Shown: one piece after another, positions 1 through 63,035 of the stretch
Numbering within the stretch: the first letter of the stretch is position 1
How the letters are laid out: each line of letters begins with the position of its first letter
Assembly: GCA_001972305.1 (NCBI GenBank)
Contig: BDDD01001962.1
Span: 62,001 to 126,000 of the forward strand
Origin: Cephalotus follicularis
Taxonomy: Eukaryota; Streptophyta; Magnoliopsida; Oxalidales; Cephalotaceae
Direction of reading: 5' to 3'
Length of the DNA stretch: 64,000 bases
Notes under the pieces: generated by a model
What the model was told of the DNA's origin: nothing
What the model saw: the letters and a program-made list of their open reading frames with translations, nothing else
The model's database searches: none
Translations under genes and position numbers: made by a program

Positions 1-608
1 CATTCTCGTGTTCTCTCCCTCTTCCCCATTCAAGTCCTGCATTCTAACTTGTTTCGTTCTCTTCTTTTGCAGGTTGCATGCATGCTAACACTTGTTACAT
101 TCTCCACCCTTCTTTAGTCATGCAGGTCAGGGGGGCCATTATGCATGCCCAACACGTCCCACTTAGTGTCCCAAGAAGCATGCAACAAGTCCAGAATTGC
201 CCCCCTTTTGCACATTATTCTGTCAGTTCATAACGTGACTGATATCCTTTTTAAAGGTGTCGACGTCTTCTTTAGACGTCGATGTCTTTTCCTCTTTCGT
301 ACAAGGGCGTCGATGCCTTCGTCTACATCGATGTGCATGTGCATGAATTTATGTGCGCCCCTAGTTCCTGTAGGAGTCGACGTCTTTACAAAGACGTCGA
401 TGCGCTTAGCCCAAAACTGCACCGTTTTACCTCTAATTGCATCCTTTTGAATTTCTTTAACATCTCCATCATTCCTTCTTCCAAAATCTAACCTTTTAAA
501 TTTTAAAAAGCTTCATTTAAGTCAAAATTTATGCCATTCTCATTAACTCGATAATAATATTTCAATAAAATTGAAATATTACATCGTGCAAAAATCTCGA
601 GCGTTACA
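1..608 (-). mobile_element. LTR fragment of a Ty3/gypsy-like element, cut by window edge
   Basis: Read on the minus strand, an LTR appears to start at 608 with TGTAACGCTCGAG, the TGTAAC start common to the chromovirus LTRs in this window, and runs off the left edge. It interrupts the copia gag that reads up to 609, so it inserted after that copia. No coding sequence is seen. It holds a cluster of six GTCGAC-type motifs near 256-402. The far end and target duplication lie outside the window, so family assignment rests only on the LTR start. Confidence 0.5.
256..402. repeat. Type I GTCGAC motif cluster, about 6 copies
   Basis: About six copies of a motif near AAAGACGTCGATGTCTTT lie in 150 bp (around 257, 275, 305, 323, 372 and 390). 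The best copies are palindromic. The same motif recurs in other, unrelated LTRs of this window. Confidence 0.85.
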
Positions 609-880
609 TTATCAATGGTCATTTTCTTGAAATCTTCCTCATCTCATTCATCTTTGATTTTAAGCAAGAGTTCGTTTTTATCATTTGTTTTCATAGGGAT
701 GTGAGGACCATTTTTAACGCTAAGCCAATTTTTGAAGTCTCTAGATTTAAGGTAAATTTCCATGCGATTGTTCCAATAAGGAAAATCATCACCATTAAAG
801 AATGGTACCTTAAATTCAGAAACATCATCATAGTTTATAGTTTGATTTATAGTTTGATTATTAATGCTAGTAGATGCCAT
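609..880 (-). pseudogene. gag: copia gag, N-terminal fragment
   Basis: Reading begins at the Met at 880. The stretch FNGDDFPYWNNRMEIYLKSR is the N-terminal block of plant copia capsid proteins (DUF4219/UBN2 type). The frame meets a stop at about 641-643 where relatives have Trp in the W-x-EED-F-K-K block, then continues with EEDFKK before it is cut at 609. About 90 of the usual 300 or more gag residues remain. Gag would form the virus-like particle. This copy is dead through truncation and the stop. Confidence 0.75.
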
Positions 881-925
881 GATCTTTAACTCAAGATGTT
901 AATCTTAGAAAAATATGAGCAACCC

Positions 926-937
926 TCTCTGATACCA
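926..937 (-). promoter_or_regulatory. Primer binding site, initiator Met-tRNA type
   Basis: The minus strand reads TGGTATCAGAGA, complementary to the 3' end of plant initiator Met tRNA, two bases inside the LTR end at 940. It fixes element orientation and the LTR inner boundary. Confidence 0.8.
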
Positions 938-1536
938 ATTGTAGGAAGTATACAGGGGGGGTTGAATGGTCTTATAAAAAATATACTAGCAAATAATCTA
1001 AACAAAACAATATCAATCACACAAATGTAGAATTTAAAGAGTGTACGGTTAAGAGAAGTACAAACAAATGTATAGTGGTTCGGCAAATCGCCTACGTCCA
1101 CTCCCTAAGGCCTCCCCTTGAGTATTTCACTAGAAAGCCCCAACCGGGCTTGAAACTCCAACCGAGCTTCAACAACTCTTGCTCCAACCAAGAAATTAAA
1201 ATTTTTCTCCCTCTGAGCTATACAAGAGACCACCTCTCTTGTTTACAAGTAATAGAAAGTGTTTAAGGGTTTACAAATTCACAATGAATTTGATTACAAT
1301 TTAGTTCAACATACACAAAGCTCTAATGATATGAGTGGTGAGAACAAGGGCTTTGTAATGTATGGAATTGCTTGAATTTGACCTATTTTGGTATTTGAAG
1401 TGTTGTGTAAGTAGCTTGAGTTGCCTTGAAAGAATTGAGTACTCTCTTGCTTGATTGCTGAGTAAGATACCTCACTTTTGCTTATAAAGTCATGCTCCAA
1501 CAGATCTATTTTTAAAAGGCAGACATAATCCAATCG

Positions 1537-2036
1537 GCTGGATTTCCTTGGTAGTCAGGTGGAGCTCATGGTGTGTATTTCAAAATATAGACGTTGGTTA
1601 AGGCAGTCGGCTGCTTGATATGGACAATCGGCTGTTTTTGAAAAACAATCGGCTGGTGCTCTGTTTCACTTGATTGGTGGAGGTGGAGAGGACTTCAAAA
1701 AAGCTATTGGTCTAATTTGACATTTCTTGACAGTCGGCTGATGGGTTTGGACAATCGGCTGGCTTGCCTTGGCAGTCGGTTGTTCCCCTGTTCCAGTCAA
1801 CTGGTTGAAGGATAGAGAATTTCCACAAAGCTACTGGTCTAACTGGACAGTCGGCTGGAAATTCTAGGCAGTCGGCTGGAAATTCTGGGCAATCGGCTGG
1901 ACCCCTGTTACAGTCGGCTAGATGGAGTGCAATTGCAGTTGATGGGATTCTTTGTAATTCCAGTCGGATGCATATCCTTAGTAGTAGGCTACTCAACCCA
2001 AACAGTCGGCTGTTCATCATGGGCAGTCGGCTGTTT
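1537..2036. repeat. Type II CAGTCGGCTG motif cluster, about 15 copies
   Basis: About fifteen copies of CAGTCGGCTG and close variants (CAATCGGCTG, CAGTCAACTG) are spaced mostly 20-30 bp apart within a copia LTR. On the element's own strand the motif is CAGCCGACTG. Similar clusters occur in gypsy LTRs at 36552, 44075, 51182 and 62723. Confidence 0.85.
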
Positions 2037-2928: not shown

Positions 2929-5900
2929 TGTCAAGCCCCGAACCGCGAGGGCAAACCCCCACAATCCGACGTGTGAGATACCTTCCATTCAGTCATTTCA
3001 TATCTATTAATCAAAAGTGCTATAAGTTTATAACTTTAAACAGTCATATATATACTAGCGGAATAATCAATCCATATAAAAACTAACTCTTAAAATCTCC
3101 CGAAATTTCGGCATGAAGTATTTGTTTATTGGACTAAACTCCCTGTAAATAAAAACACATTTTATATCTTGGGATCAGCCCTCAACAACCCAACTCCCGA
3201 AGGAGGAAACATCAGTTTATCATAGTAGTAGGTCCCATCCATATCCTTTTCATCAACACTCATATAAATCAAGCACTGCCACAAGTCAGCAGGTCAAATA
3301 CAGAGATAAAACATATCTTTATTTCATCTTTAGATTTGTTTCTTATACAATAACCATAAATACATCCATATTCAATATATGTCCCTTTACAATATCATAT
3401 TTATACAAAGTAGGTCGGAGGAGATGTAGATCCTTACCCTGCAATTTAACCTGGCTTGTCACTGATGCGCGTCACCTGGACCTGAACCTGACCCATTACA
3501 TTACAATACAATGCAATGGGTCAGCAACCCAAAGGTTGTGTAGGATATACGTATGCAAGAAACGTATAAAAGTGTAGCAGATATGTGTACAATATGAGAT
3601 ATGTATGCATAACAAGAGATACATGAATGCCAATTCATAGAAATGTAGCTCATAATATAAAGGTCATGCACCATAACCTAGAGACCACTAGAACATGTGA
3701 TCTACCGTTCGTATACGACCGTCCTGTACCGGTGTATAGGAATGGGATCAAATCAATCATCACTCTTTAACAAGCCAATGTCAGGCCCTAAAGGTTCTAG
3801 CCCATTAACCATTCCCCTAGATTCACACATGCTAGTGATCTACCATTTGTATACAACCGTCCCATACCGGCGTATAAGAATGGGATCAACAACAACCATC
3901 TAGGGATACAAACCATACTATGAAAACTAGCATTTAGAAAAATGCCATTTTCCATAGGCACCATTCACTAACCATATCCATACGATTCCAATACAATGCC
4001 ATTACCATTCAGCGTCCATATCATTCCAAAATCCTTTCAAAGCATATTTAAGTTCTTCTCGGCCTCCCTTGCCGAGGTAACAGACTAGGCGCTCATGGCG
4101 TCCTAGGTAGAGGTCCTCATTTTACTGGCAGACTAGAGTAGCGTTTGTACGTAGAGCAGAGAAGAGAAGATGGACATTCTCTAACAATGGTCTCTCTAGT
4201 TACAGCCACCCTCCATATCCATATATCATCACAATCCGGCCATTACGACATGTAACGACACGATTCATAACCATATTGTATCCGTCCCATGACGTATCAT
4301 AACCATTTGGTATCCGTTCCATAATCGTACGATCCATCATCATACGAACCAAAGCTGTACGATTCATAACGTACAATCCATAGTCGTACGATCCGTACAG
4401 CGAAACCATACTATATGCCATAATGCAACAATATAAAGATATGCCATGCATTCCATAGGGTAGTAAGGTGTTGTGCATGCATCAAGTGAAATCATAAGTC
4501 ATGTGGTGAATAATATACATATATGTGTATCAGTATGCCAAGTGATGTCATGTGTATAAATGACAATCGTGGACAGCTTCAATATACCAGCCATCCCTAA
4601 GTGAGGTATATTTAGCTAGTCCTAATCATGTCAAGGCCATAGGCCTGTCGATAATCCATATAATAATTCATATCGAGCATAGGGACAATCAGTCCATTGG
4701 GTCCATCCCACCCTCGATGCACTTTTGGTGTCGTGGAGGAGTAAGGAATGAGATAACGCTGACTACGTCATTTATTTCATGATTTGTATGGGTCCTCCCA
4801 ACATGTGGGGTCCACACAATGTATATGGGTCCTCCCAACATGTGGGGTCCACGCAATATATATGGGTCCTCCCAACATGTGGGGTCCACACATTGTATCA
4901 GTCCTCCCACAATAGTGGGGTCCAAATATCGTATCGGTCCTCCCACAATAGTGGGGTCCACGTATCGTATCGGTCCTCCCACAATAGTGGGGTAAGCTCT
5001 TTTGTATGGTCCACAATCACAATGTGGTGTAAACTATGGTCTAACATTCATGACGTTCATGACGGAAATGAAAGTCAGGAATGGGTTATCTCTACAGCCT
5101 CATACAGTACAATCAATAATCCATCCCATAGTTGTGACCTAAAATCATGTATGCTTTTAAGTAATAGGGACCATTTGTAAAGGATCTCATGGATCCACAT
5201 CCGTCAAACCATTTAAAATCATTTCCCTAGTCATAAGTCATATTTCATATCCATGAAACATTTCTGTAGCCATAAGCTAATTTCCATATCCATAAGCCAT
5301 TTCCATAGTAATCTGTAACCATAGCCATAGCCATCTGTAACCATATCCATGTCCATCCGTTATCATATTCATGACCATCCATAATCATATCCACGACCAT
5401 CTGTAATCATATCCACGGCCTTCTGTAATCATATTCATCCATGATCGTATGATCCATTCCATAGCGATCCATATCTATGTCGGTCCTTAACTATACCATT
5501 CATCTAATAACAATCAAGAGGTTAGCTAGATATATACACCGTCCCATACCAGCATATATAAGTAGTTAACCACATACCACTTTCAATTCATAACCTTGAA
5601 AATGATTCCAAGACATATATGAGTTACCCTCGGCCGCTTGGGCTCGAGGTAGAAGAGAAACATACCTCAGCCTCTTGGGCATGAGGTAGCATAGAAACAT
5701 TGCATAACAATACTATTCCGTATACTCGTATATATATATATACAATCATGCATCCATACAATTACAACTCGTACACATATCAATTCATATAACCATTTAG
5801 AAAGCATGAATGCAATACAAGTAGTATAACCTACTCTAGTGAGCTACCAATTGTATATTACTATCTCATACCGGCGTATACGAATGGGATCAAGTCCCTA

Positions 5901-6999
5901 TTCATCTGGCACGTACCATCGGAGTAAATGTATACCCTACCTGTTAACAATTGAGCTTGCGAGTTGGGAGGACTTGCAGCAGAATCCATGAATTGCTACC
6001 TCCTCTAAGCTTCACTCGTTGTCACAAGCACGGCTCCATCTTTTGTCAACGGAGTTCTCTTTCTCTCCTCGTATCACTGCAATAACCATCACACATTCTG
6101 TTATGACTTACACAAAAGTAGCAATTACACATTGTCATCACCGGAGTTCCGACCAATTTCCGGCCAACACATCGAAACTCCAGCCACGCCGTACAAAGGC
6201 TCCAAATTGGCCAATCTATGCACTGGTAGTCGTGTCTCACCGTGAATCGCACAGTCACAGCCGGCAGTGAGTCAACTCACTGAGTCAGCTCGCCGTTCAA
6301 CCATAACTTCGGTCACCACCCGAATTAGCCACACAACCATCAATTCTATGCGTCACTGCCAGAGAATCACCGTAGAACGCGCTATCACAGCCGGCCAGTG
6401 AGTTCAACTCACTGAGTTGACTCATCGGTCGTCAACAGCTCTGGCCACCACCATAAAATTCATCACAACCACCAGACAAACACATCTATGCCCCTAACTC
6501 ACTGAGACTCGGCGCTAAACGCGCGGTCAAAGGTGGCAGCGAGTTGGTTTGCTGAGTCAACTCGGCAGTAGGAATCCAGCCGTTTCTGGCCAAATGGTGC
6601 CAAACTAGTCACCGAAATAGGTGTAGCCGGCCTCCTAGGTGAAGACTGGACCTTCCCGTGATTCTAACCGGCGGTGGAACGCACGGCAGCGGCGTGACAG
6701 TGGCATCTGGTGAAGAAGAAGGAAAGAGAAAGGAGGAAGAGAGAGAGTTACCGTCGATCGAGGTGAGCACCGCACGTCCTCCAGCCGTCGCCGCTTTTCC
6801 CGGTGCCGTTCCTTCTCTCCAGAGCCATCTCTCCCGCTCTCTCTCGCTTTCTCTCCCACACTCTGACTTCCTTTCTTTCTTAGCGCAAGTGATGCACCTG
6901 GCGCATAACACACTTGTGTTATGCGCTTGATGGCTTCCTCTTTTTTTTTTTTTAAATATGCAAATATATATATATATTTATATATATTGGGGGCTTACA
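2929..6999 (-). mobile_element. 4.07-kb solo LTR inside G1 gag
   Basis: The insert starts TGTCAAGCCCCG and ends GGGGCTTACA, and is flanked by the 5-bp duplication AGAGG at 2924-2928 and 7000-7004, as expected for LTR-retrotransposon integration. No internal region or primer site is present, so it is a solo LTR left by LTR-LTR recombination. The minus strand is homologous to the LTRs of element B: the terminus at 2929-2985 matches 60705-60761 and the block at 6540-6660 matches 57530-57680. It contains a 37-bp tandem repeat (4788-4995). No convincing gene is seen; open frames here are short and unlike known proteins. Confidence 0.85.
4788..4995. repeat. 37-bp tandem repeat in the solo LTR
   Basis: Six units of about 37 bp with the core GGTCCTCCCA-ACATGTGGGG or -CAATAGTGGGG followed by TCCAC occur head to tail. 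The first three units carry ACATGTG and the last three ACAATAG, so the array grew in two steps. Each unit can form a short CCCAC/GTGGGG hairpin. I did not find it in the homologous LTRs of element B. Confidence 0.8.
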
Positions 7000-15384: not shown

Positions 15385-15666
15385 GAACAAAAGATCGACT
15401 TTTTATGAAGAAGTCGAGTTTCTGAGGAAAAGACGTCGACGTGATTCTAAAAGGAGTCGATGCGATCTTAAAATTTGGCTGTAAAAACGGTGCGTTTAAA
15501 AAAGCATCGACGTATTTTGAAAAGAAGTCGACGTGTTTTAGAGAAACACATGGGGATCGACGTTTTTCAAAAGAAGTTGACGTGATTTTCATATGTTTTC
15601 CAGAAAAGGAGTCGACTCTATTTTATAAAGCATAAAAAATTCCAGAAAAGGAGTCGACGTTTTTCA
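15385..15666. repeat. Type I GTCGAC motif cluster, about 8-10 copies
   Basis: Copies such as AAGACGTCGACGTGATT, AAGAAGTCGACGTG and GGAGTCGACGTTTTT fill the gap between gag and the accessory ORF, in the region that would be the 5' leader of the accessory ORF. Confidence 0.85.
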
Positions 15667-16825: not shown

Positions 16826-17000
16826 TCGATGTTATCTCGGAAATAGTCGATGTCATCTTGAAAGTAGTCGACGTCTTTTGGAAGTAGTCGATGTCTTTTG
16901 GTACGGACGTCGATGCCATTTCTGGGAGGACGATGTCTTCTTTGTAGTTAATCCTGCACTGAAGACGTCGATGCTATTTTGAAGGAGTCGACTTCTTTTT
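16826..17000. repeat. Type I GTCGAC motif cluster, about 8 copies
   Basis: About eight copies (AGTAGTCGACGTCTTTT, GGACGTCGATGCC and others) sit between the LTR start of the Sirevirus-like element and its gag, the second cluster in the same element. Confidence 0.85.
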
Positions 17001-21306: not shown

Positions 21307-21311
21307 AGGAC
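21307..21311. repeat. G2 target-site duplication, left copy
   Basis: AGGAC here matches AGGAC at 30716-30720 and brackets G2. Removing G2 and one copy joins the two parts of the C1 leader. Confidence 0.85.
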
Positions 21312-23652: not shown

Positions 23653-23685
<33 letters not shown>

Positions 23686-23925
23686 TGATAGAGAAAGGGA
23701 GAAGAATGAAGAATGATGAGATAAGAGTGAGAAATTGACTTAAATATTCAATTCGACCAACTCTCCGAAACTCAGCCCAGAATCCCGACTATACATGCAT
23801 ATGATCAATACAATATCAATAGGTATAAGAATACCTCAATTCAATACAGTTCAGTACGGTCCAAAACGGTACAATACGGTATGATGTATGCATGAATAGT
23901 ACAAAAGGGAATTCGGGTCGTCACA
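21312..23925 (-). repeat. G2 3' LTR
   Basis: This copy pairs with 28132-30715 over its whole length. It contains a CAATC/AATAC-rich low-complexity part (21470-22650), the GTCGAC cluster at 22850-23190 and a (GA)n run near 23650-23690 that is shorter in the other LTR. The promoter TATA seen in the 5' LTR reads ATATTTAAGT here, so it is mutated. No gene is seen. Confidence 0.9.
22850..23190. repeat. Type I GTCGAC motif cluster, about 12 copies
   Basis: About twelve copies lie in 340 bp, including AAAGACGTCGACGTGTTT and CAAAGACGTCGATGCCTTTG, the latter nearly a perfect palindrome. The cluster is collinear with 29673-29990 in the other LTR. Confidence 0.9.
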
Positions 23926-23942
23926 TTCTCCCCTCTTTAAAA
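23926..23942 (-). promoter_or_regulatory. G2 polypurine tract
   Basis: The minus strand reads TTTTAAAGAGGGGAGAA directly before the TGTGACGACC start of the 3' LTR at 23925. Confidence 0.8.
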
Positions 23943-23989
23943 GAATATGATCCCCAAATTCATCGGTCAAACGATCAATCAATCAAAAA

Positions 23990-26315: not shown

Positions 26316-26327
26316 AAACTCTATCTC

Positions 26328-38150: not shown

Positions 38151-38155
38151 GATTG

Positions 38156-41182: not shown

Positions 41183-41203
41183 TACATCTTTACCTAGAAA
41201 GAG

Positions 41204-41760
41204 TTGAACATGCGTCAGAGAAGGTGGTTAGAGCTTCTGAAGTACTACGATCTGAATATTCAGTACCACCTTGGTAAAGTAAACGTGGTAGCTGATGCTC
41301 TTAGTCGGAAGAATTATGGGAGTGTAGCGGCTTTGCTTACTCAGCCGAAGTTGATAGCCGATATGGAGCGCTTGGACTTGAATCTGTTTGTTCGGGGTTC
41401 TGAAGGTTTTGTTGCTGTGATGAATGTTGAGCCTACTCTTATATCTCGGATTAAGATAGCTCAGAGTGATGATGGTGAGCTTTGGGCCTTAGTCCAGAAT
41501 GTTGAAAAGGGTAAACAGTCAGAGTTTCATGAGGATGAGCATGGTGTGATATGGTTGGGCAATCGGTTGTGTGTTATGGCAGATACTTCCATTAGAGATG
41601 CTGTTTTGTTAGAGGCACACAGTTCTCCATTTTCTATACATCCAGGTTCTACAAAAATGTATAGAGACATGAAGAAGAACTTCTAGTGGAATGGAATGAA
41701 AAAGGATGTAGTAGAGTATGTTGGGAGGTGTTTGATCTATCAGACAGGTAAAGATTGAGC
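41204..41760 (+). pseudogene. G3 RNase H end and integrase finger
   Basis: NMRQRRWLELLKYYDLNIQY and KVNVVADALSRKNYG close RNase H. A family-specific stretch (GFVAVMNVEPTLISRIKIAQ) leads to the integrase finger AHSSPFSIHPGSTKMYRDM, a stop at 41684, and VGRCLIY..KIEHQRASG in shifted frame. The same stretch recurs in G4 at 48450. Confidence 0.8.
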
Positions 41761-41777
41761 ACCAGCGTGCTAGTGGT

Positions 41778-42870
41778 TTGTTACAGCCCTTGGAAGTTCC
41801 AGTTTGGAAATGGGAGAGCATTTCCATGGACTTTGTTACGGGTTTGCCAAGGACTTTTAGAAGAAAAGATACTATCTGGGTAGTAATGGATCGATTGACT
41901 AAATCGGCTCACTTTTTGGCTATCCGAGAGGACTTTTCGATGGATCGTTTGGCTGAGGTGTTTCAGCAGGAGATAGTGAGACTCCATGGGACTCTGGTAT
42001 CCATTGTTTCGGATAGGGATCCTCGTTTCACTTCGCGGTTTTCAAAAGGGTTCCCCAAAGCTTGGGGTATGAGGCTCAGTTACAGTACAGCTTTCCATCC
42101 AAGACAGATGGGCAGACTGAGATGACCATCCAGACTTTAGAGGATATGTTGAGGTCTTGTGGTTTGGAGTGGACTGGGAACTGGGACGAGTTTTTGAGCT
42201 TGGTGGAGTTTGCATACAATGACAGTTGGCATGCTAGCATCCGTATGGCTCCTTTTGAATCTCTTTATGGGAGGAAGTGCCGAGCTCTGACATGCTGGGA
42301 TGAGGTTGGAGAGCGAGTTATCAAGGGACCCAAACTAGTGCAGATCACTACGGAGAAAGTGGCAATAGCGAGGGAGAGATTGAAGGCAGCTCAATCTCGA
42401 CAGAAAAGTTATGCGGACAAACATAAGAGGGACTTGGAGTTCAAAGTAGGTGAACATGTGTTCTTCAAAGTTTCACCTTGGAAAAGGGTCCGATGTTTCA
42501 GGCTGAAGAGGAAGTTAAGTCCACGGTATGGACTTTTTTAAGTTCTGGAAAAGGTGGGCGCAGTTGCTTATCGGTTAGTTTTACCTCCGCAGTTACCACA
42601 CGTCCAAAACGTGTTCCACGTGTCTCTGTTGAGGGGTTATCAGTATCATCCCCTGCATGTGGTTCACTATCCTCTGGACAGCATTCAGGAGGACCTATCT
42701 TGTGACGATGAGGTAGAGGCTATTGTGGGTCAATAGGAACGGGTGACACGTAGCAAGACCGTTCCTTTTGTGAAAGTTTTATGGAGGAACCATCCCGAGT
42801 GCGAAGCTACTAGGGAGTTGGAGGAGCACGTTCGGGAGCGACATCCACGTTTGTTTGCTTAAGCTATGTG
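41778..42870 (+). pseudogene. G3 integrase core, C-terminus and chromodomain-like tail
   Basis: The core has WESISMDFVTGLPRTF (first Asp) and SIVSDRDPRFTSRF (second Asp). The text then shifts frame at 42100 with the third acidic residue in TDGQTEMTIQ. MAPFESLYGRKCRALTCWDE, FKVGEHVFFKVSPWK and HVQNVFHVSLLRGY follow, with another frame change near 42540. After a stop at 42734 the tail ERVTRSKTVPFVKVLWRNHP and HVRERHPRLFA is chromodomain-like. The polypurine tract follows. Confidence 0.85.
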
Positions 42871-42895
42871 TATGTTTATGATTTTGGGACGAAAT

Positions 42896-42914
42896 CCTTT
42901 TAAGGGGGATTGGA
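42896..42914 (+). promoter_or_regulatory. G3 polypurine tract
   Basis: CCTTTTAAGGGGGATTGGA lies immediately before the 3' LTR start TGTAATACCC at 42915. Confidence 0.8.
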
Positions 42915-45688
42915 TGTAATACCCTTCTTGTCCGTATATGTGTTTTGCAGACTTCTTATATGTTTGTTTTCGGACTTTTTAATTTGTTTTGTTATAAAGT
43001 CTGTTTGCCCTATGATTGGGCCTATCTGTTTTGGGCTGACTGATACCAGCCCGGACTTTGGGTATGATGATATGTGGGATTGTATGTTTATGGATTATGT
43101 TTTTATCTACCTAATTTATTTTATATTTCTTTTTATTAATACTTAAACTAATTATTAAAATAAAATCCTTATTTTTTTATTCCTTTTGAAATCCCTTTCC
43201 TTTTCCTTTTTTTTCCTTTTTTCCTTTTTCCCTCTTTTTCTTTTCTCTCTTCTACCTCACCCGAAACTCTCTCTTCCTCCCTATCTCTTCACATGGTTTT
43301 ATCCATTTTCCTTATCAATCTCCTGAAAATCCTTTTGCTTTCTCATATCTATGAGATTTTGGTCTCCTGTTTCCATTTTAAGAGTGCCTTTGCCTTTATG
43401 TTATGCCATTCTCTCTTCTTTTGCCTGCTCAGTCAAAAATTGCAAGCTAGGAAATTGCTGTGTTTTTGTTATTTCAATCATCACCAGTCAAGTTTGTGCT
43501 AATATTTCAATCATTGATTGTCCTGTTTTAGTTATAATATCCTTTGACAGGCTTTGAGGTTATATGTTCTTTTCTTCTCTTTTGCTTTCTGTTGATCAGT
43601 GAATTGAGTCAGGGAATCGTTGTGTTAATACAACAGTCTTGTGTCACCATTACAGGTTAGTTGTTCATTTTGTTGTGATGGTTTATTCTACATTGTTAAG
43701 AATCTAATTTTATGTCCATTTTGGCTATGAGAGATTGGTTTTGCCTCATGTCAATGCGTACAATGTTGTTGTTCTGAGTCAATTGATCAACCTTTAGGCA
43801 TTATATATATGTTGTAATTTCGTCTTGGAACTGAAAGTAACTTTTGACAGCAACTTGAATTGTTCTGTGTAGACATGTGTTTAGATATCACTTTGTCTTT
43901 TCCTTTGAGTTTAGCCACTGGTCCTATGATCTTTTCAAGTCTGTGTTTTCTTACTGTCTAAATGCCATATAATGTCATGTGTATATGTGTATAAGCCTCT
44001 GGTATAGTATTATTCGATTTTTGGACCAGTTTCTGCATAGAATTGTTAAGTTTCTGCTGTTCTATAAACCAGAACAGTCGGCTGTTCTTATGATCAGTCG
44101 ACTGGTTTGGTTGAGCAGTCGGTTGTTTTATGAATACAGTCGACTGTTTTGTGTTGAGTAATCGACTGGACCTCTGTCAAAGTCGACTGCTTGTAGTCCT
44201 GTTTTGTAGTCGACTGGCCCTGTTTCATAGTCGGCTGCCAAGCTTCCTCAGTCGACTGGAGCTCTGTAACAGTCGGCTGTTTTGCCCAAAAAATTCCTTT
44301 TTTCAACTGTTTTGATTCGTTTGCTCGTCGATTCGATCTGGGTCTATTCTAAACGCTATAATGAATCTGTTTTATGTCTCTAATGATTCTTAGACCCTTA
44401 TATGCATGGTTTTGTGTCTTTTAGATTGTTGTGCTTCAAGGGGAGTTTGAATTAACAATTTTTCGTAAGTCTTTTCTGTAAGCGCATAAGGTACGGATAT
44501 TCTGCTATTTGATACTCTCTTCGATTTTATCGAACGAAAACCAGTTTTGTTTTATGCTATGTTCCTTCGTTTTAAGAACTTGGTTATGAAATTGATATGT
44601 TCTGGAAAATAAACTCGGTTTGACATTTTATGAATTTATTATTCCTCACTTTATACGTATGTTATGATATGTTATGAAATGTATGTTACGAAAATTATAT
44701 CGTTTGATAACGATTCCCAAATATGTTTTGAAAAAGCATATTTTATGTGTTTCTAAAATTGATTTTGATAATTCAATGAATTGACAATGATTAAATACTG
44801 AGTATTTGTACCCACCTATGGGGCGTACCATAGGCATGTCGTAGACCTGGCACAAGGACATGACACTTCCATAGCGGTGTGATTAGTCTACGGCGTCTCT
44901 GTATGTTATAAATAAATCCCATGAGGTGGATTTATGAATCCGCTATGTATGATAGAGCCGTATGAATCGATTCTACTTTATGGCATATGTGATAAGATAT
45001 GCAATGTGTGATATGATATGTTATAAGAATTGGCTTGTGTAGTGCCGTACACCTCAATTCTAATGGGCATGTGGAATTAGCGCCTCCCCTGCCATATATG
45101 TTTCTGATATATGATATGTGGCTCAGTATGGATTATGGAATTATATTTTTAAAACGTTCTGTATATGTCTCGAAATATATGAATTGGGTTTTATGAAGTT
45201 CAGAAATGAACATTTAAATGTTTACTTCTTAAGATTTCTGATACGAGTTTTATTGAAATCTTACTGCTTTTAAATTACCGTTTACTGTTTTATATTATTT
45301 ATCTGTACTGAGGTTTGCTCAGCCGCGTTTTTGTTTCAATGCGGTAGGTTATCAGTTACAGCGGGGGAAAGTGTAAATGAGAGATGACCACCTTTATGTC
45401 ATGGATCCTTCGGAGTGTGAGCCCGATGTGTTTTCAATTACAGTTGGTCATGAACAATAAGATACATTTGGCTTATGTTTTTAATAATTGACCCTTGGAA
45501 CGTATGTTTTAAGTTTTCTGAACATGTTAAGTTATTCAGTTTATGATCAGTTTTCAGCATGTTATGTTTTGACCGCCACGTTTTGGGCTAATAAAGTTAT
45601 GCCTTTGTTATGTTCAGTTAAGTTATGTTTGTTAAGTTGTGATCTGTATTATGACCTGTGACGACTCCCGCCGTCCAGGGGTGTTACA
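42915..45688 (+). repeat. G3 3' LTR
   Basis: Pairs along its length with 35392-38150; the two differ at many scattered sites and small indels, so the insertion is not recent. It includes the type II motif cluster at 44075-44282. Ends GGTGTTACA, then GCGTG. Confidence 0.9.
44075..44282. repeat. Type II CAGTCGACTG motif cluster, about 10 copies
   Basis: Ten copies; the first four are spaced 20-22 bp. Four read CAGTCGACTG or AGTCGACTGG exactly in positions where the 5' LTR copy is altered, so this is the better-kept cluster. Confidence 0.9.
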
Positions 45689-45892
45689 GCGTGTATACTG
45701 CTTTTGAGATCATCACCAGTTCAGTTGGAAGAGCCTTGCAGGGATGGAAATCTTAGTCGGGAAACGTGTAGAAAACAATTCTTCATTAGCAATAGGTTTT
45801 ATCACCAATACTCTAGATGCTCAGTTTTGTTATTATAATCATGCTTTCACTTGTTTTTTAATCAACAAATCTCTAATCTAGTTCTAGCTTCT
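45689..45892 (+). other. CACTA interior after G3, no clear gene
   Basis: The CACTA sequence resumes after the GCGTG duplication. No recognised exon until 45893; a short stretch near 45700-45760 could be eroded coding sequence but matches nothing I know. Confidence 0.35.
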
Positions 45893-51181: not shown

Positions 51182-51432
51182 AGTCGGCTGTTTTTATGGA
51201 CAGTCGGCTGGTTTGGTGGTGTAGTCGACTGCCTATTGAAAACAGTTGACTATCTTTTGTTGTGGAGTCGCTGTTTGTATGAATCAGTCGACTGCCTTAC
51301 TATGCACAGTCGGTTGGACCTCTGTCACAATCGACTGTCTGTAGTCTTGTTTGTACAATCGACTGGCCCTTATGATTAGTCTACTGCCAAGCTTCCCCAG
51401 TCGGCTGGTGCTCTGTGACAGTTGGTTGTTTT
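51182..51432. repeat. Type II CAGTCGACTG motif cluster, about 12 copies
   Basis: About twelve copies in the G4 LTR, two or three more than in G3 (for example extra units near 51265-51300), so unit number changes within a family while the core is kept. Confidence 0.9.
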
Positions 51433-53521
51433 GCCCAGAAAATTTCTGTTTTCAACTGTTTTGATTCGTTTGTTCTTCGAATCAATCTGGGTCTTTTTCT
51501 AAGCACTGTTATGAGTCTATTTTTGTCTCTAATGATTCGCAGACCCTTGTATGAATAGTTTTGGTGTCTTTTAGATTGTTGTGCTTCAAAAGGGGGGTTG
51601 ATTTAACAATCTTTCCGTAAGTGCTGTTGTGAACGCATAAGGTATGGATATTATGCTCTTTGATACTCTCTTCGACTTTATCGAGGCAAAATCAGTTTTG
51701 TTTATATTTACGGATTTCTATCGCTCTTTGGTCATCTGGTTTTATCGAATGAAAATTAGTTTTGCTTTTATGGTATGTTCTTCGTTTTATGAACTCGGTT
51801 ACAAAATTGATATGTTCTAGAAAATAAAGTTGGTTTTGACATTTTATGAATTTAATATTCCTAACTTTATTCTTATGGTTTGATACGGTACGATATGTTA
51901 TGAAATGATCATCTCTTTACAGCGGAAATGTAATACCCCGGATATTAAAATCCACACTCATCTTGTCGGTGAAGCTGAATGTTGGTGAATAAATGGAGCT
52001 TAATTCAACGGAGTCTACTCATACGATTTGTCGCTACGAACACACTTCGTATAGACCTAGCATGACTACTCATAGGTCTTGTCTGATTAAAATCCACACT
52101 TCGTATAGACCTAGCATGGCTACTCATACGTCTTGTCAGCAATGCCGCACTCCGTATAGACCTAGCTGTCGTTGTTTACCAAGGTATGATCGTTCAACTT
52201 CATGGAATTGTTTAATACAATCTATGGCGAGTTTCTATACCCTAAAACCAATTTTCTATTATATATTTTCTTTGGTTTTATTTATTGTTTTAATTAGTTT
52301 TAATTTGCACGTGTTATTTTCAATTATTTTATTTTAGTCCGTTATTTTATTTTATTTATTTCTTTCCTGTTTTCAATTATTTTATTATTTTTGCATAATT
52401 AGGAGTAGTTTTTAATAGTTTATCTCAAATTTGGTATACTTCGCCCAGGTTGGATAAATTACAACTAGCTTACGTTTCCCTGTGTTCGACCCGTTACTGC
52501 ATGATCCGTGCACTTGCGGCTATAAATTTTAAAACATTCTAAATCAGTGAACACACCTATTTCAGTGGCTGATTTGGCGTCATTCGGCCGGAAACGGCCG
52601 GATTGGAACTGACGAGTTGACTCAGTGGAGCCAACTCGCTGCCGCCTTTGACCGCGCGTTTAGCGCCGAGTCTCAGCGAGTTAAGGGCGTTGATGTGTTT
52701 GTCTGGTGGTTGTGATGGGTTTTATGGTGGTGGCCGGAGCTGTGGTTGACCGGCGAGTCAACTCAGTGAGTTGAACTCACTGGCCGGCCGTGACAGCGCA
52801 TTCTGCGGCGAGTCACGGCGAGTCTCAGTCGCCAACGGACTGATTGAAGGATTTCGATGTCGGTTATGGCATTTTTTAGTGTTGACCGGAACTGTTGAAA
52901 TCCGGCGAGTTGACTCAGTGAGTCGAACTCACTGCATGCCATTGACTGCTAGTTTCACGACGAGTCACGGCAGTTACTCGGTAGATATGAATTGATCGAC
53001 CAATGTGGAGTTTGTTTATGGGTGTCGCTGGAGCTAAGTGAGTTGGCTGAAAACTGGCCGAAGCTCCGATGACGGCTGTGCTTGGTTTCCGTGCGTAGAG
53101 TGTAACGGAATTGTGTTGTATATGCAGGGTGAATTAAGTGATCAAGGATAGGAGGTTCCCAAGCGATGGCGATTCGATAGCCGGTTCAAGCTTGGAGGAG
53201 CTAACGGTTCGTCGGCTCTGCTACAAAATCCCTGGAATAGCAAGCGCAACTGTTGTTACTGCTTCAACTGGTAGGTTATACTATATGCACTGCATTCATG
53301 CATTTCAATGAATTGTGTGGATTGTTACTGTACTACTGTCACCGAGTGTTGATTGACTGCTGTAGTTGCTGTGTGAACTGTTACTGTTTTACTGCGATTA
53401 CTGGTTGTTGCACCGATTGGGAACTGGGTATTGATTTACAAACTGTTTACACTAAACTGAAACTGATTTCATGGATTTCGGTCATAGTTCCTTTGATTTG
53501 TGAACTGTTGTTTCTAATAAA

Positions 53522-53690
53522 ACCGTCGACACTTTACTGCTTTCAAAACTGACCCGTCGACGCTTTCATGCTTTTAAACTGAGTAGTCGATGTTTCATAC
53601 TATACTTTCTAAAACCGTCGACTCTTTTGTGTGTTAAACTGAATAGTCTACACTTTACGCTTTTAAACTAAACTAGTCGACACTTAGCGC
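53522..53690. repeat. Type I GTCGAC motif cluster, about 6 copies
   Basis: ACCGTCGACACTTTACT, CCCGTCGACGCTTTCAT, AGTCGATGTTTCAT, ACCGTCGACTCTTTTG and AGTCGACACTTAGC at about 30-bp spacing. Repeated at 58582-58745 in the other LTR. Confidence 0.85.
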
Positions 53691-54093: not shown

Positions 54094-54850
54094 TTACTGT
54101 TACCGTTACTGGGTGCGACTACTGTATGATTACTGTTTACTGTTATTGTTGTGACTGTACGGGATAACCCATTCATAATCTTCGTTTCCGTCATGAAGTA
54201 TTATGGGTGTTTGGCCTCACATCACTGTCAATCCTCCTTTTTTTGTGACCTACGGGAATCACCGCCTGACGGATGGATACGATTACTGTTACTGATACTG
54301 TTACTGTTACTGAGAGCTCCACTGTTACTGTTACTGGCTAGTACCCTTCGGGTCTAGCACTACTGTTACTGTTATTGGCTAGTACCCTTCGGGTCTAGCA
54401 CCACTGTACTGTTTTCGTGGCCAGTTTTATCCTATGCTCCTTGCGACTATAACACGGGAGGGTTGTGTTTAGTCGATGGGGGTACTATCTCGGGCCGGAG
54501 TGGCAGAGAAGTACTTGACCCTACAACTTTTTGTTTCCATGTACTGTTACTGACTGTTTACTGAGTGTCTGCAGGCCTATGGCCTTGGATGTGATTAGGA
54601 CTAGCTAGATATACCCCGCTTAGGGACGGTTGGTATATCGAAGCTGTCCACAACTGTATAATGATATACTGCACTGCACTGTTACTGCCACTATTATTGT
54701 ACACCGTTATTGTTCACTAAGCACTGTACGGTACTGTTACTGTATTGTTACTGTCACTGTATTGTACTGTCACAGTACCGTTACACGGCAAACCGTTATA
54801 CGGCAAACCGTTACACTGTCACACTACTGTATTGATGCATACATTGCATA
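54094..54850. repeat. CTGTTA short tandem repeats and duplicated hairpin
   Basis: Runs of ACTGTTACTG-type units fill much of this stretch. Within it, TAGTACCCTTCGGGTCTAGC occurs twice (54337 and 54379) and can fold as a hairpin with a TTC-type loop. The same layout is at 59135-59880. Confidence 0.8.
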
Positions 54851-55732: not shown

Positions 55733-57219
55733 TGGTCTATCATAGATACATCAGGATAGGATCGTAGGCTATTGGAAGTTGAAAGTGATTAATTGTATAA
55801 AGTGCTATTTGGAGTTAATTGGAGTCGCGGAATGATGATAAGTGTTATTTTGACTTCTTAGAGATTAAGTGATATGGACAAGTTACCCTTAATAGAGTTG
55901 AGTGATACTGATGAATTGTGGTTCTATAATTGTTTTGGATTATGATAATGGAAATCGATAGCTGATTCTTTTGTCTCTTATACAACTTGGATATGGAAGG
56001 TAAAAGGAGGGGAGCCCTACCCCCTTGGTTTATGAAATGGACTGGTGGTACGGTTACGGGATGGTACGGTTAAGGAACGGTACAGTTACGGAATTGTACG
56101 GTGGTTACGGAATGGTATAGTTAAATGATGTTATATGGCCAACTACTTATATATGTTGGTATGGACAGTATGTATATTTAGTTAACCTTTCTATGGTTAT
56201 GAAAGGGATGGATATGGGATGGATTGGTTAGCGACACATGATGCTCACGTGGACTGTTACGGGAAGGTCATAATTTTCAGTATTCCAGGACGGTCTCCAT
56301 TTGAGTTATTGAGACCTTAGATCATCAGCCAATTCCGATGATGGCAGCCTTGCATGCAGATAGGCTTATGAGACAAGGTTGCAGTGGTTTCCTGGCGCAT
56401 GTAACGGATTGTGGGAAATGGATACTGAGATTGGAGGATGGCAGCTCTGGGAGGTCACTTCGGACTTGCCAGTAGTGGTAGTCAAGTTTCCTTTGACATG
56501 TCCTTGTATTGTCAACGCACAAATTGTACATTTGATGACTGTTGATGGAAAGTTGGCTAGTGTATGGATCATGGAATTTCGGATCACATGGTTAGAGAGT
56601 GCCATCATGAACGGTATGGTTTTGGAGTCACCAAAGACAGAGTATGGTCAATTTCAAAGAGATCTTCATCAAGACCAAAGTATTGACTATCAGCTAAACT
56701 GTGATTTCGGACAGTTGTATCCGGTTCGCCCTGGTACTAACTCACCTTCTCGTGCGAGAAGAGATCAAGGCAAACGGTCTGTGGGATCGACGCCTCCAGA
56801 AGAGTAGAGTTGTATCCTTTACAATGAGGAGCCGAAGGACGAGCTGTGGTCGCAGTCCTATCGCTCCAGTTTCTCAGTGCATCCGGCTATTAGCAAAGAT
56901 GTGCCGAGATCTGATGCTCGATTTGGTGGAATGACATAAAGAGAGTGGGCGCAGTTGCCTGTAGGCTTGCCTTACCACCCAACCTATGGGAACGGAACCT
57001 ACCCTGTAACATGGAGTGTAGACCATGAATCAGAGTAGCACAGCAAAAGTGGGATTGATTGAGGTGGCAGTTGGGATGAACATCTGCCGTTAGTAAAATT
57101 CCCAGTGAAAGGTCATGTGTTACACAATGTGTCCATGTCTTAATGCTCAGAAAATATCCTCCAGATCCTTCTCACGTGCTACTATGAGCCGTTAGAGTTA
57201 AGGACGGATACGAGCTAAG
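55733..57219 (+). pseudogene. Element B internal remnant, gypsy gag-pol scraps
   Basis: The first 480 bp are non-coding, with GGTACGGTTACGG-type repeats at 56040-56110. Protease text is seen at 56217-56300 (MDWLATHDAHVDC), followed by ALHADRLMRQGCSGFLAHVT (56345-56405), the segment that precedes RT in G2. At 56880-56960 there is a scrap like the integrase finger (VHPAISKDVPRS) and VGAVA, like the integrase C-terminal part. No RT or RNase H is seen. The order matches a gypsy pol after large deletions. No polypurine tract is clear before 57220. Confidence 0.65.
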
Positions 57220-60200
57220 TGACACCCACTATTTCTACTTTTGATAGAACTATCTATATCTTCTATAAGACTTACCATTGCAATATATATACATATATTT
57301 TTTAAAAAAAAAAGAGACACCAGGCGTTTTAACGCCTAGTGCGTCAAAAGAAAGAATGGGCAGAGTGTGGGAGAGAACGCGAGAGAGAGCGGGAGAGAGA
57401 TGGCGCCAGAGGAAGGGAGAGACGCCGGCGACCGGGAAAAAGGACGGCGGGCTCCCCAGCTGCATCTCCATGGCTGGTAACCTCCTTCCCCTTTCTTCTC
57501 TTCTCTTTTCCTTCTTCTCCCCGTCATTGTCGCCACTGTCACGCCGCTGCCGTGCGTTCCACCACCGGTTAGCGTCACGGGAAGGGCCGGTCTTCACCTA
57601 GGAGGCTGGCTACACCTATTTTTGTGGCTGATTTGGCGTCATTAGGCCGGAAATGGCCGGATTGGAACTGACGAGTTGACTCAGTGGAGCCAACTCGCTG
57701 CCGCCTTTGACCACGAGTTTAGCGCCGAGTCTCAGCGAGTTAAAGGCGTTGATGTGTTTGTCTTGTGGTTGGGATGCGTTTTATGGTGGTGGCCGGAGCT
57801 GTGGTTGACCGACGAGTCAACTCAGTGAGTTGAACTCACTAGCCGGATGTGACAGCGCATTCTGTAGCGAGTCACGACGAGTCTCTATCGCCAACGGACT
57901 GATTGAAGGATTTTGATCACGGTTATGGCATTTTTGAGTGTTGACCGGAACTGTTGAAATCTGGCGAGTTGACTCAATGAGTCGAACTCACTGCCGGCCA
58001 TTGACAGCTCGTTTCACAACGAGTCACGACGGTTCCTCGGCAGATATGAATTGATCGACCAATGTGGAGTCTGTTTATGGGTGTCGCTGGAGCTAAGTGA
58101 GTTGGCCGAAAACTGGCCGAAGCTCCGATGGCGGCTGTGCTTGGTTTCCGTGCGTAGAGTGTAACGGAAACGTGTTGTATATGCAAAGTGAATGAAGTGA
58201 TCAAGGATAGGAGGTTCCCAAGCGATGGGGATTCGATAGCCGGTTCAAGCTTGGAGGAGCTGACGGTTCGTCGGCTCTGCTACAAAATCCCTGGAATAGC
58301 AAGCGCAACTGTTGTTACTGCTTCAACTGGTAGGTTATACTATTTGCACTGCATTCATGCATTTCAATGAATTGTGTGGACTGTTACTGTACTACTGTCA
58401 CTGAGTGTTGATTGAATGCTATAGTTACTGTGTGAACTGATACTGTTTTACTACGATTACTGGTTGTTGCACCGATTGGGAACTCGGTATTGATTTACAA
58501 ACTGTTTATACTAAACTGAAACTGATTTCATGGATTTCGGTCATAGTTCCTTTGATTTACGAACTGTTGTTTCTAATAAAACCGTCGACACTTTACTGCT
58601 TTCAAAACTGACCCGTCGACGCTTTCATGATTTTAAACTGAGTAGTCGATGTTTCATACTATACTTTCTAAAACCGTCGACTCTTTTGTGTGTTAAACTG
58701 AATAGTCGACACTTTACGCTTTTAAACTAAACTAGTCGACACTTAGTGCCCTGTTTTGCGAAATGACACTGTTTCTCGCTGTTTTCAAATTCAAACTGTT
58801 TCTCTTTTAAATTGATTCCATAGGAAGCCTCCCTAAGACCTTGTATCCTATGTGAATCATCTTCTAACACTGTTAGAGCTTTGAATCAAGTTTTCAAGGT
58901 GATTCTTGAAGAAAGTGCAACAAAAGAGTTTTTATACAAACGATTTTCCAGAATGGTTAGGATAGCTCCTTTGGGACATTTGGACGCAGATGATCTCATT
59001 GGACTTCCTCTCCATTGTTTTACGAACTCGATAGGGACCAACCAACTGTTACTGAATTGTTACTGATACTGTATTGAAAACTGTTTTACAACTGTATTGA
59101 CGGATGTGGATCACATTGGTCCTTTAGGTTCCTATCATTTCTGCTGTTTACTATTACTGTTACCGTTACTGGGTACGACTACTGTATGATTACTGTTTAC
59201 TGTTATTGTTGTGATTGTACGGGATAACCCATTCATAATCTTCATTTCCGTCATAAAGTATTATGGGTGTTTGGCCTCACATCACTGTCAATCCTCCTTT
59301 TTTTGTGACCTACGGGAATCACCGCCTGACGGATGGATACGATTACTGTTACTGATACTGTTACTGTTACTGAGAGCTCCACTGTTACTGTTACTGGCTA
59401 GTACCCTTCGGGTCTAGCACTACTGTTACTGTTATTGGCTAGTACCCTTCGGGTCTAGCACCACTGTACTGTTTTCGTGGCCAGTGTTATCCTATGCTCC
59501 TTGCGACTATAACACGGGAGGGTTGTGTTTAGTCGATGGGGGTACTATCTCGGGCCGGAGTGGCAGAGAAGTACTTGACCCTACAACTATTTGTTACCAT
59601 GTACTGTTACTGACTGTTTACTGAGTGTCTGCAGGCCTATGGCCTTGGATGTGATTAGGACTAGCTAGATATACCCCGCTTAGGGACGGTTGGTATATCG
59701 AAGATGTCCACAACTGTACACTGATATACTGCACTGTACTATTACTGCCACTATTATTGTACACCGTTACTGTTCACTAAGCACTGTACGGTACTGTTAC
59801 TGTATTGTTACTGTCACTGTATTGTACTATCACAATACCGTTACACGGCAAACCGTTACACTGTCACACTACTGTATTGATGCATACATTGCATATTGTT
59901 ATAACTGTTACGTACATGGCACATAGTATAACCTACACGACATTATGTCGCTGACCCATTTCCCCTGTGTGCGGAATGGGTCAGGCTCAGACAAAGGTGA
60001 TGGATCACAGTAAAATGGATCGAGATGGATGGATACCTAAGTGGATCTTGAATACTAGTGGTGTTGGGATTGTATTGTTATTGTGTATGGCTTCGTTATG
60101 ATCATATTATGGAATTACTTATATGGATTGTATTAAATGAGACAGGCTAAGATAAATGGGTTCTCTGTAGGATATTTTTATTTGCCCTGTTGAATATGAT

Positions 60201-60761: not shown

Positions 60762-61132
60762 GGAAAATAAATGAGTTGGTGTTTTGACTATGAAATGTAT
60801 GTTATGATATCGTTGGTGAACGATTTTTAAATATGTTTTGAGAAAGCATATTTATGTGTTTTTAAAAGTGATGTTTTCGAAATGATTGAATACTGAGTAT
60901 TGTACCCACCTATGGGGTGTACCATAGGCAAGTCGTAGGCCTGGCACTGGGACATGACACTTCCGTAGCGGTGTGATTAGTCTACGACGTCTCTCAAAGT
61001 TATGAATAAATCCCATGAGGTGGATTTATGGATCCGTTATGTGTGATAGAGATGTATGAATCGATTCTAGTATATGGATATGTGATATGAAATGATATGT
61101 GAGAATTGACTTGTGTAGTGCCGTACACTTCA
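60762..61132 (+). repeat. G4 3' LTR, continuation
   Basis: After the second GGAAA the text follows the G3 LTR 37080-37530 (GGGGTGTACCATAGGCAAGT, TGTAGTGCCGTACAC) until a new LTR starts at 61133. It confirms that B sits in the G4 LTR. Confidence 0.8.
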
Positions 61133-62540
61133 TGTAACGCCCCGAATTTCATAAATAATTATTATGAAATTGGTGCGTGTACAGTCGTGATAAAACCGTT
61201 AGAGGCCCGGAGTAATAAAAAGGCATTGCGCATTTAAGTCGTAATCGTGTTAGCTAGGACGGCTAATAAAATCTATTTTTAATGAGCGACAATAAAGCCC
61301 GAATGTTCGCATTTTTATTGGGATTATTTTGGCGGTTGTTTGGATAATTTATGTCACGATTTGTGGAAAAATCGCGACCCAGACCTTAGTATTTTACCAG
61401 AAAATACTAAGGGGGAAGCAAAATAAAGGAAGGGAGAGGGAGAGACACGGGCGCGTGCCCGTGCAAGAAAAGGCAGCAGGCGCTCTGTGCGCCCGCGCCA
61501 GAGAGAGAGAGAGAGAGATTGGGAGAGAGTGCTGTAGAGAGATCGGGAGAGGACGCCGGAGCCAGCTACCGGACCAGGAGAGCACGCCGGTCAACCCAGG
61601 CACGCCAACGGATGGTAGCTCCTCCTTCCCCCTTCTCTTTTCTCTTCTTTTTCTCCTTCTTCCCCCCCACTGTCGCGCCTTCACCGTGCGTTTTCCGGAG
61701 CCGTTGGCGTCGTGGATGGAGGTCATCTAGAAGGCCCGCTCTTCCCATTTTGACCACCAGTGAGGCGTGATTTGGTCAGAATTGGCCGGAATGGCTTGAC
61801 TGAGTCGACTCAGCAAGTCGACTCACTGCCGCCTTGGACCGCATGTTTAGCACCGAGTCTTGGCGAGTCACGGGCATGGGTGTGTATAACTGGTGAATGT
61901 GCGGCGTTATTGGGTGGTGATCGGACCTGTGGAGGTCCGGCGAGTTGACTCAGTGAGTCGAACTCACTGCCGACCGTGGCGCGGCATTCGGGGCCGATTC
62001 CCGGCGAGTCTTGACCGGTTTTGAGTAGACCGTTCAATGTGGAACCCGTTGATGGGTGTTTCACCGCCTGGTTGCGTCGGTCGGAATCCGGCCGGCGTTT
62101 CGGCGACGGAAATGTTTTGTGTGTCGAACATAACAGAAATGTGTGGTATGTGCAGTGTGTGAGTGGCCATTGGATTTGGCATTGAGGAACTGATCAATTG
62201 ACAAGAACCGGATTCGGTTCAACGGTTATCGAAAAGGTTCGGCAAATGAACGTGCAGCTCGACTGTACGGTTGTTACTGCTGTAACAGGTAGGGGACTTT
62301 ATAAATGTGGTTTGAGTTCAATTATAATAAATGTTCCTTGATGAAATGCGTGCATATCGTATCTTGGAATGATTGTGGGCTGTGGATTATGAAATATGTG
62401 ACTGTGTGAGGGTTGCTATGAATAGTTAATCCGTTATGCATATTGTGTTTTACGATGATTGTAGATCGGATTTCATGTGTTGTATGCCTTGAACTACATC
62501 GGTTTGAGACGTGTTGAAGAACCATGCTTTGGTTTGCTTA

Positions 62541-62655
62541 ACCGTCGACGCTTAGGAAAGAAGCGTCGACGCTATAGATTATTATACGGAGAATGAGTCC
62601 TGATTCGCGATAAACGTCGACGCTTATAGATAACTTCGACGCTATGATTCATTGT
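62541..62655. repeat. Type I GTCGAC motif cluster, four copies
   Basis: ACCGTCGACGCTTAGG, AGCGTCGACGCTATAG, AACGTCGACGCTTATA and ACTTCGACGCTATG, directly upstream of a type II cluster in the same LTR. Confidence 0.85.
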
Positions 62656-62722
62656 GTGTTAGAATGGATCGTTGTGAGTTGTGGCTTTGTTTTGCTGCTG
62701 TTTTTCTGCACTGTCTGCAGAA

Positions 62723-63035
62723 TCCAGCCGACTGTCCAAGAGGAAAGCCGACTGCTCGAGTGCGCCAGTCGACTGTTCAGTATGAACAGCCGACTACTCA
62801 ATGGATCCAGCCGACTATGCGTGGGAGCCAGTCAACTGTCCATGTGTGTTACTGAGAAATGCCTGCAAAGGCTTGAGTAGCCGACTGCTGTAGGCCAGCG
62901 TCCGACTGTTGGGTATAAACAGCCGACTGTCAAGGATGACAGCCGACTGTCGAGTGTGGGCAGCCAACTGCCAGTTTAGGACAGCTGACTGTTGAAGGAA
63001 AACAACCGACTGTCAGTGAGGGAAAACCGATTGTT
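62723..63035. repeat. Type II CAGCCGACTG motif cluster, about 14 copies
   Basis: About fourteen copies of CAGCCGACTG, CAGTCGACTG and variants at about 20-25 bp spacing. On this strand the form is the reverse complement of the CAGTCGGCTG that dominates in G3 and G4. Confidence 0.9.

Follow-up and report, generated by a model that had tools for sequence, protein, structure and literature searches.

The stretch of DNA analyzed here, 64,000 nucleotides from contig BDDD01001962.1 of the carnivorous plant Cephalotus follicularis (Oxalidales, Cephalotaceae; positions 62,001 to 126,000; hereafter the window), contains gypsy and copia retrotransposons whose non-coding parts carry clusters of short CpG-containing palindromes. 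When the CpGs are read in context, three dialects of the motif can be distinguished, all with a TCGA center. Dialect A, CAGTCGRCTG, is carried by the arrays we label F1, F5 and F9; dialect B, AAAGACGTCGAYGTCTTT, by F2, F6 and F7 (F7a being B-like); and dialect C, AAGCGTCGACGCTT or CCGTCGACRCTTT, by F3, F4 and F8. An earlier note on this DNA had listed 15 intervals of GTCGAC-cored clusters and ascribed them to a single motif. The clusters are real and 14 of the intervals are dense, the weak one being 32775 to 33632 (F4b, minus strand), where 8 loose dialect C-like sites are spread over 858 bp; the single motif holds as regards the common center and otherwise divides into the three dialects.

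Element F1 (35392 to 45690, plus strand) has long terminal repeats (LTRs) at about 35392 to 38152 and 42915 to 45690. Between them lie, in this order, gag, reverse transcriptase (RT)-ribonuclease H (RNaseH) and a weak integrase zinc match (E = 4e-4, below the cut-off). Its LTRs carry dialect A arrays of 8 units (F1a, 36552 to 36762) and 10 units (F1b, 44075 to 44282), and an older, diverged LTR of the same family and strand carries 11 units, or 10 in a second count (F1c, 51182 to 51432). Element F2 (21309 to 30713, minus strand; LTRs at about 21309 to 23923 and 28130 to 30713) contains protease, RT, RNaseH and an integrase zinc domain in that order, with a primer-binding site (PBS) at 28117; dialect B arrays of 11 and 10 units occupy its 3' LTR (F2a, 22850 to 23190) and 5' LTR (F2b, 29673 to 29990). 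In both elements RT precedes integrase between paired LTRs, which is the Ty3/gypsy order. Element F3 consists of two LTRs enclosing a short interior that retains gypsy-like remnants; dialect C arrays lie on the plus strand in LTR 1 (F3a, 53522 to 53690) and, by the LTR-pair alignment, in LTR 2 (F3b, 58582 to 58745). Since in F1, F2 and F3 the two LTRs carry their arrays at matching positions, insertion of a DNA transposon was rejected as their source in these three elements. The starts of the two F3 LTRs (51929 to 52553 and 57005 to 57612) cannot be aligned over their first 620 bp or so, the remainder being 96% identical; it is the start of the 3' LTR that agrees with other F3-like copies, which suggests a recombinant 5' LTR.

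Near the right end of the window, a dialect C array of 3 units (F8, 62541 to 62655, plus strand) lies in an F3-like LTR starting at about 61134, and a dialect A array of 13 units (F9, 62723 to 63035, plus strand) belongs by position to the same LTR. F8 and F9 thus appear to lie within one LTR, the first part of which (start 61134) aligns to F3 at 64-69%. The right flank encodes a gypsy gag (72%) and RT (85% identical to F1); no PBS joining the LTR to them was seen, and a gypsy host is therefore only probable. It follows that the 'at least eight unrelated families' of the earlier note were too many: F1a, F1b and F1c are one family, F2a and F2b another, F3a and F3b a third, and F8/F9 cannot be counted as unrelated to F3.

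F5 is a dialect A array of 15 units at no more than 2 mismatches, mostly 21 bp apart (1537 to 2036, minus strand), with a TATA-like TTTATAAG about 45 bp past its last unit. The LTR end and PBS (930 to 965, minus strand) comprise a C-run, CA, ATTGG and TATCAGAG. This junction, CTACA ATTGG TATCAGAG with the C-rich CAACCCCCCC about 20 bp upstream, has the Sirevirus junction features given in PMC2829016. The gag-like N-terminus of the element matches Pfam DUF4219 at E = 0.15 and the F7 copia gag at 29% over 41 amino acids (E = 1.9e-6); the left flank encodes a copia integrase and gag on the F5 strand, possibly continuous with the F5 element. Judged by junction, C-run and TATA spacing, F5 is probably a Sirevirus-type copia LTR, the gag evidence being weak. 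F6 (256 to 402, minus strand) is a dialect B array of 5 units inside the F5 element, in its internal region past the copia-gag-like N-terminus. The F7 copia gag (PF14223; 15796 to 16805, minus strand, in two overlapping frames) is bordered on both sides: F7b, 6 units of dialect B (16826 to 17000, minus strand), lies directly upstream, and F7a, 7 B-like units (15385 to 15666, minus strand), lies between gag and a downstream open reading frame (ORF) with a Pfam match to PF20167 (13843 to 15306, minus strand). At E ≤ 0.001 there are 322 relatives of this ORF, and those listed (120) all come from C. follicularis, the best being 89% identical. Finally, F4a is a dialect C array of 4 units (32410 to 32495, minus strand), with an LTR end near 31820 reading CA, AGTGG, TATCAGAGC. 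Such a junction is a variant given for Sireviruses in PMC2829016 and is compatible with a Sirevirus as a possible host of F4.

Dialects A and B thus each have a gypsy and a copia host (F1 and F5 for A, F2 and F7 for B), in agreement with the earlier proposal that one site type is common to both superfamilies. Most clusters lie in LTRs, as had been supposed, the exceptions being F6 in an element interior and F7a between gag and the PF20167 ORF.

The motif is strongly over-represented in the window, here compared with 300 dinucleotide shuffles (60 for the ranking of palindromic hexamers). Counting without any prior hypothesis ranks CGTCGA and GTCGAC first among all hexamers. GTCGAC occurs 45 times (7.1 in shuffles, maximum 15) and, at 6.3-fold, shows the highest excess among the 64 palindromic hexamers. 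Perfect 10-bp palindromes centered on TCGA number 23 (3.5, maximum 10) and CAGTCGRCTG/CAGCCGACTG sites 21 (0.12, maximum 2). Seven motif pairs are spaced by 21 bp, against none in shuffles, and 10 chains of at least 4 sites are present (0.04, maximum 2). Around CpGs, the frequency of palindromic arm matches at offsets 1 to 8 falls from 0.56 to 0.33 inside clusters and is 0.24-0.28 outside. With a loose caller (score ≥ 0.80), 109 of 131 sites fall in the 29,927 of 64,000 bp assigned to LTRs. The words CAGTAACA and ACTGTTAC are also in strong excess (32 against 2.3 and 27 against 1.7), in part because of (TTACTG)n in F3 LTRs, at 54283 to 54336, 59343 to 59396 and elsewhere.

Two array periods are established: 21 bp in dialect A, where the 11-bp spacers of F1, F5 and F9 vary, and 30-31 bp in F3. 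Counted per cluster rather than per element, F5, F1a, F1b, F1c, F2a, F2b and F9 have a high copy number (at least eight palindromic sites), reaching 8 to 18, while the clusters of F3, F8, F4a, F6, F7a and F7b hold 3 to 7.

Across the assembly of 1,577,397,061 bases, CAGTCGACTG occurs 197,377 times and GCGTCGACGC 73,186 times, compared with 939 and 121 for reversed controls, which lack the CpG or have it shifted and so are not CpG-matched. We also sampled 20 pieces of 10 kb (L022 to L041) systematically rather than at random, taking positions 20001 to 30000 of contigs C50 to C1950 (9,586 N in all). CGTCGA (146 against 22) and GTCGAC (105 against 17) again top all hexamers, and the leading 10-bp palindromes after (TA)n are CAGTCGACTG (20 against 0.05) and GCGTCGACGC (16 against 0.009). 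The motif stands far above shuffled controls in pieces sampled elsewhere as well as in the window. Arrays of at least 3 units number 23, spread over 12 of the 20 pieces, and none is found in any of 50 shuffles; 15 pieces are positive under a looser rule. Arrays in L034 (4283 to 4813) and L033 (2159 to 2480) lie just inside the PBS, that is, in the leader rather than the LTR, and L030 combines a Sirevirus-like junction and an F7-like gag with no array. Viral contigs yielded 9 and 4 loci with a single matched pair or word and no array, and a translated array used as protein query gave 41 candidates, none at E ≤ 10. The same pieces contain a minor second palindrome, CCTTGGCCAAGG (5 against 0.02), and a repeated AAGTGTTTGA/ACACTTCACC family.

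Comparison of related LTRs bears on the conservation of the motif. A column was counted as motif if either sequence was motif-like there, a choice that favors conservation somewhat, and F1b is used twice. Between F1b and L022, 86 of 100 motif positions are identical, compared with 97 of 136 in spacers (71%; P = 0.008) and 1,670 of 2,440 in the rest of the LTR (68%; P = 9.5e-5), so that in this one gypsy comparison the motif is better conserved than its spacers; motif CpGs are kept in 9 of 10 cases, against 25 of 80 elsewhere (P = 5e-4). The corresponding figures for F1a and L022 are 80/100, 94/136 and 1,665/2,425 (P = 0.015 for motif against rest), with 7/10 motif CpGs kept against 19/74. Motif CpGs are also kept more often between F1b and F1c (7/10 against 7/41, P = 0.002), less clearly between F1a and F1c (6/9 against 10/34, P = 0.06) and without significance for F1a-F1b (8/10 against 32/59), the F2 pair (18/23 against 52/85) and the F3 pair (8/9 against 98/125).

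Genome-wide, CAGTTGACTG has 21,361 copies on both strands (control 4,173), which gives a one-sided CpG decay of 5.0% for the motif; the baseline word TTTTGATTCGTTTG from the F1 LTR, with 3,283 intact and 349 G-to-A copies, gives 9.6%. Among 147 families of words with a central CpG, CAGTCGACTG is the most intact (0.92, median 0.17), and the first 32 entries of the ranking, both strands being listed, are array words. Strong CpG protection was nevertheless rejected: the family baseline is lowered by AT-rich chance words, and the genome-wide difference is about twofold.

Repeated sites in LTRs have precedents. Tnt1-type activator boxes are repeated, partly symmetric LTR sites that activate transcription, few in copy number and confined to one family; here many copies occur in several families. 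The closest known kind is the palindromic repeated-motif (RM) box of Sireviruses. In PMC2829016, RM boxes are described in the LTRs of 13 Sireviruses and as absent from classic copia elements; they are reported as Sirevirus-specific and have a CGG-CCG core in 12 of the 13, while the Vitis box CGGTCGACCG contains GTCGAC and it, like the Tnd-1 box ACAATCGATTGT, is centered on TCGA. Our arrays resemble RM boxes as many short CpG-containing palindromes in LTRs with divergent flanks, clustered a short way upstream of a TATA box, as in F5, or ahead of an env-like ORF region, with which F7a may be compared. They differ in having a TCGA center without the CGG-CCG core (GGTCGACC is absent from the window, and dialect A in F5 and F9 has GCCGAC or GTCGGC rather than the CGG-CCG dyad), in the strict 21-bp period of dialect A and in their gypsy hosts, F1 and F2, where both LTRs are occupied. 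We recognized no earlier report of gypsy LTRs with such arrays in the literature searched, which mostly excluded subscription papers; of the 173 publications that contain at least one of the motif words, none of the 40 listed looked related to plant LTRs, judged by title and start of abstract.

We favor, with moderate confidence, the view that the clusters are cis-regulatory arrays of binding sites of the Sirevirus-box kind, here present in gypsy elements as well, that their putative reader belongs to the host and that they arose by convergence. Several to many TCGA-centered dyads, mostly 21 bp apart, would be placed in the non-coding DNA of a retrotransposon, in the LTR, the leader or upstream of a third ORF. 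The dyads are symmetric, regularly spaced and close to the promoter, which suggests sites for a dimeric protein, and the reader would most likely be a family of dimeric, sequence-specific host DNA-binding proteins, whose binding may raise LTR transcription or keep the LTR open. Arrays would expand by tandem duplication while spacers drift, the dyad being kept by selection in active lineages, and the superfamilies would converge on the same site type because they share host factors. Protein binding, an effect on transcription and convergence in preference to exchange are what we infer here. In a more specific version, possible and rather doubtful, Ty3/gypsy and Sirevirus-type copia elements would have acquired independently of each other a TCGA-centered dyad that recurs every two turns of the helix, and a single host protein family would read it. 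The site core of CBF/DREB proteins is RYCGAC; 129 of 199 window matches to it lie inside the 3,280 bp of clusters, and since this core is part of the motif the count does not discriminate, so that a CBF/DREB-type reader is only a lead. The cis module read by one protein, as proposed earlier, retains its shared site type, but three dialects weaken the case for a single protein.

Several results weigh against the cis-regulatory view. Inter-site distances beyond 24 bp show no support for helical phase (23 distances, p = 0.23), and no TATA-like word occupies a constant position near the F1, F2 and F3 arrays. Motif and spacer do not differ significantly between F1a and L022 (P = 0.07); the pairs F1a-F1b, F2 and F3 show no significantly better conservation of the motif, which is even slightly more diverged between F1a and F1b (11.0% against 7.9%). 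Protection of motif CpGs across the genome is only about twofold, measured against a single baseline word in its G-to-A form. No element-coded or other reader candidate was seen among 49 Pfam-scanned proteins, a subset of the ORFs. Eight of the 20 sampled pieces lack an array under the strict rule. Occurrence among copia elements is patchy, with array words within 4 kb downstream at none of three RT loci (the top three of 150 scored RVT_2 matches, from 42,844 candidates), which fits absence from part of copia.

The arrays might instead be neutral minisatellites, that is, functionless tandem duplications of 20-31-bp units that happen to include a palindrome. Tandem Repeats Finder reports parts of several clusters as repeats of 19-22, 31 or 42-44 bp, neighboring F5 spacers are near-identical, and these LTRs often contain ordinary tandem repeats. 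Yet one TCGA-centered dyad recurs among arrays with different spacers, a single word tops the hexamers of separate genome pieces, and the motif is conserved above its spacers between F1b and L022; we consider this explanation unlikely. Still less probable is that the palindromes serve as RNA hairpins that feed or resist silencing by small RNAs, an idea discussed for the Sirevirus LTRs of maize. According to PMC10760457, maize copia LTRs have palindrome peaks, linked to small RNAs, and Ty3 elements have no obvious ones. The palindrome clusters of the window share the RNA-folding potential of those maize LTRs, 10 of 14 clusters having z from -2.75 to -9.3, against a mean of -0.53 (standard deviation 1.7, 15% below -2) in 40 control windows. 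They depart from the maize pattern in that gypsy LTRs carry arrays and in that F5 (z = -0.04) and F9 (-1.24), which have the most units, do not fold beyond shuffles, nor do F3a (-0.33) and F8 (-1.61). Hairpins were thus rejected as a property common to all arrays, and we treat folding as a by-product. We attach similarly little credence to anti-silencing sites, at which a host or element-coded protein would remove or block methylation in the manner of VANC proteins on VANDAL elements, the analogy first drawn for this locus. The arrays do recall the VANC motifs described in PMC5735166, which are likewise short, densely packed in non-coding transposon DNA and altered by tandem duplication, and CpG decay in the motif is about half that of one baseline CpG. 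The VANC motifs are found in DNA transposons that encode the reader themselves, whereas here palindromic CpG sites lie in LTR elements; the Pfam scan revealed no candidate protein, the twofold gap depends on one baseline word and one form of decay, and the Sirevirus RM box (PMC2829016) is the nearer precedent.

Common descent or exchange is comparably improbable: recombination or template switching would have carried an ancestral array from one family to another, and its spacers would have diverged since. In a finer spacer test, F1 and F5 are more similar than column shuffles (p = 0.005, the best pair matching at 9 of 11 positions) and none of 2,000 letter shuffles scores as high; masked alignments of F2b with F7a and of F7a with L034 reach p = 0.01 each before correction; and dialects C and A adjoin in the F8/F9 LTR. 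Against exchange, 6 of 51 motif-masked array pairs reach p ≤ 0.05 (smallest value 0.01, the minimum with 100 shuffles each) and none survives correction, F1-F9 (p = 0.27) and F5-F9 (p = 0.92) show no excess similarity by column shuffles, and, relative to the LTR, the asymmetric form of dialect A points one way in F1 and the other way in F5. No homologous segment with alignable spacers runs across the arrays. The assertion of 'no other shared sequence' accordingly stands for masked spacers and fails for F3 and F8/F9, which align; of the suggested convergent selection or exchange, convergence agrees with the non-homology of most spacers, and the F1-F5 similarity still allows exchange. In the window and the sampled pieces, neither of the outcomes that the earlier note had named as refuting its view was observed, namely a motif density no higher than in shuffles or one homologous segment common to the LTRs of all families. 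On balance, the interpretation given in the earlier note is partly supported.

Arrays may also be replaced within an LTR. In an older F3-like LTR (2929 to 6881, minus strand), the blocks that flank the F3 array enclose a different tandem repeat, of 22-bp units in 5.8 copies and without GTCGAC, at 5303 to 5438. In L039 (4601 to 7402), an F1-like LTR end (61%) accompanies a dialect C array, and the sequence just before the array resembles F8/F9 (63%); this LTR may represent a dialect switch or a mosaic. Such cases suggest to us that arrays turn over inside LTRs while the preference for one site type is shared, and some exchange may have taken place.

A feature reported as Sirevirus-specific now extends to gypsy elements. 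Should several superfamilies of a host be controlled through the same type of site, host factors would be the point on which LTR regulation converges, and a single protein would give access to tests of how many elements are activated or silenced; if the single-family reading holds, a large share of the retrotransposons of a 1.6-Gb genome would depend on one switch. With 197,377 exact copies, one 10-mer could serve as an entry point for mapping binding, methylation and small RNAs.

Two further features of the window lie outside the arrays. An AT-rich imperfect inverted and tandem repeat with units of 38-84 bp, possibly a small inverted-repeat element, is located at 33683 to 33928. Between retrotransposons, an ORF at 46805 to 47047 matches Pfam DUF7477 (E = 1.2e-20) and represents a gene fragment.

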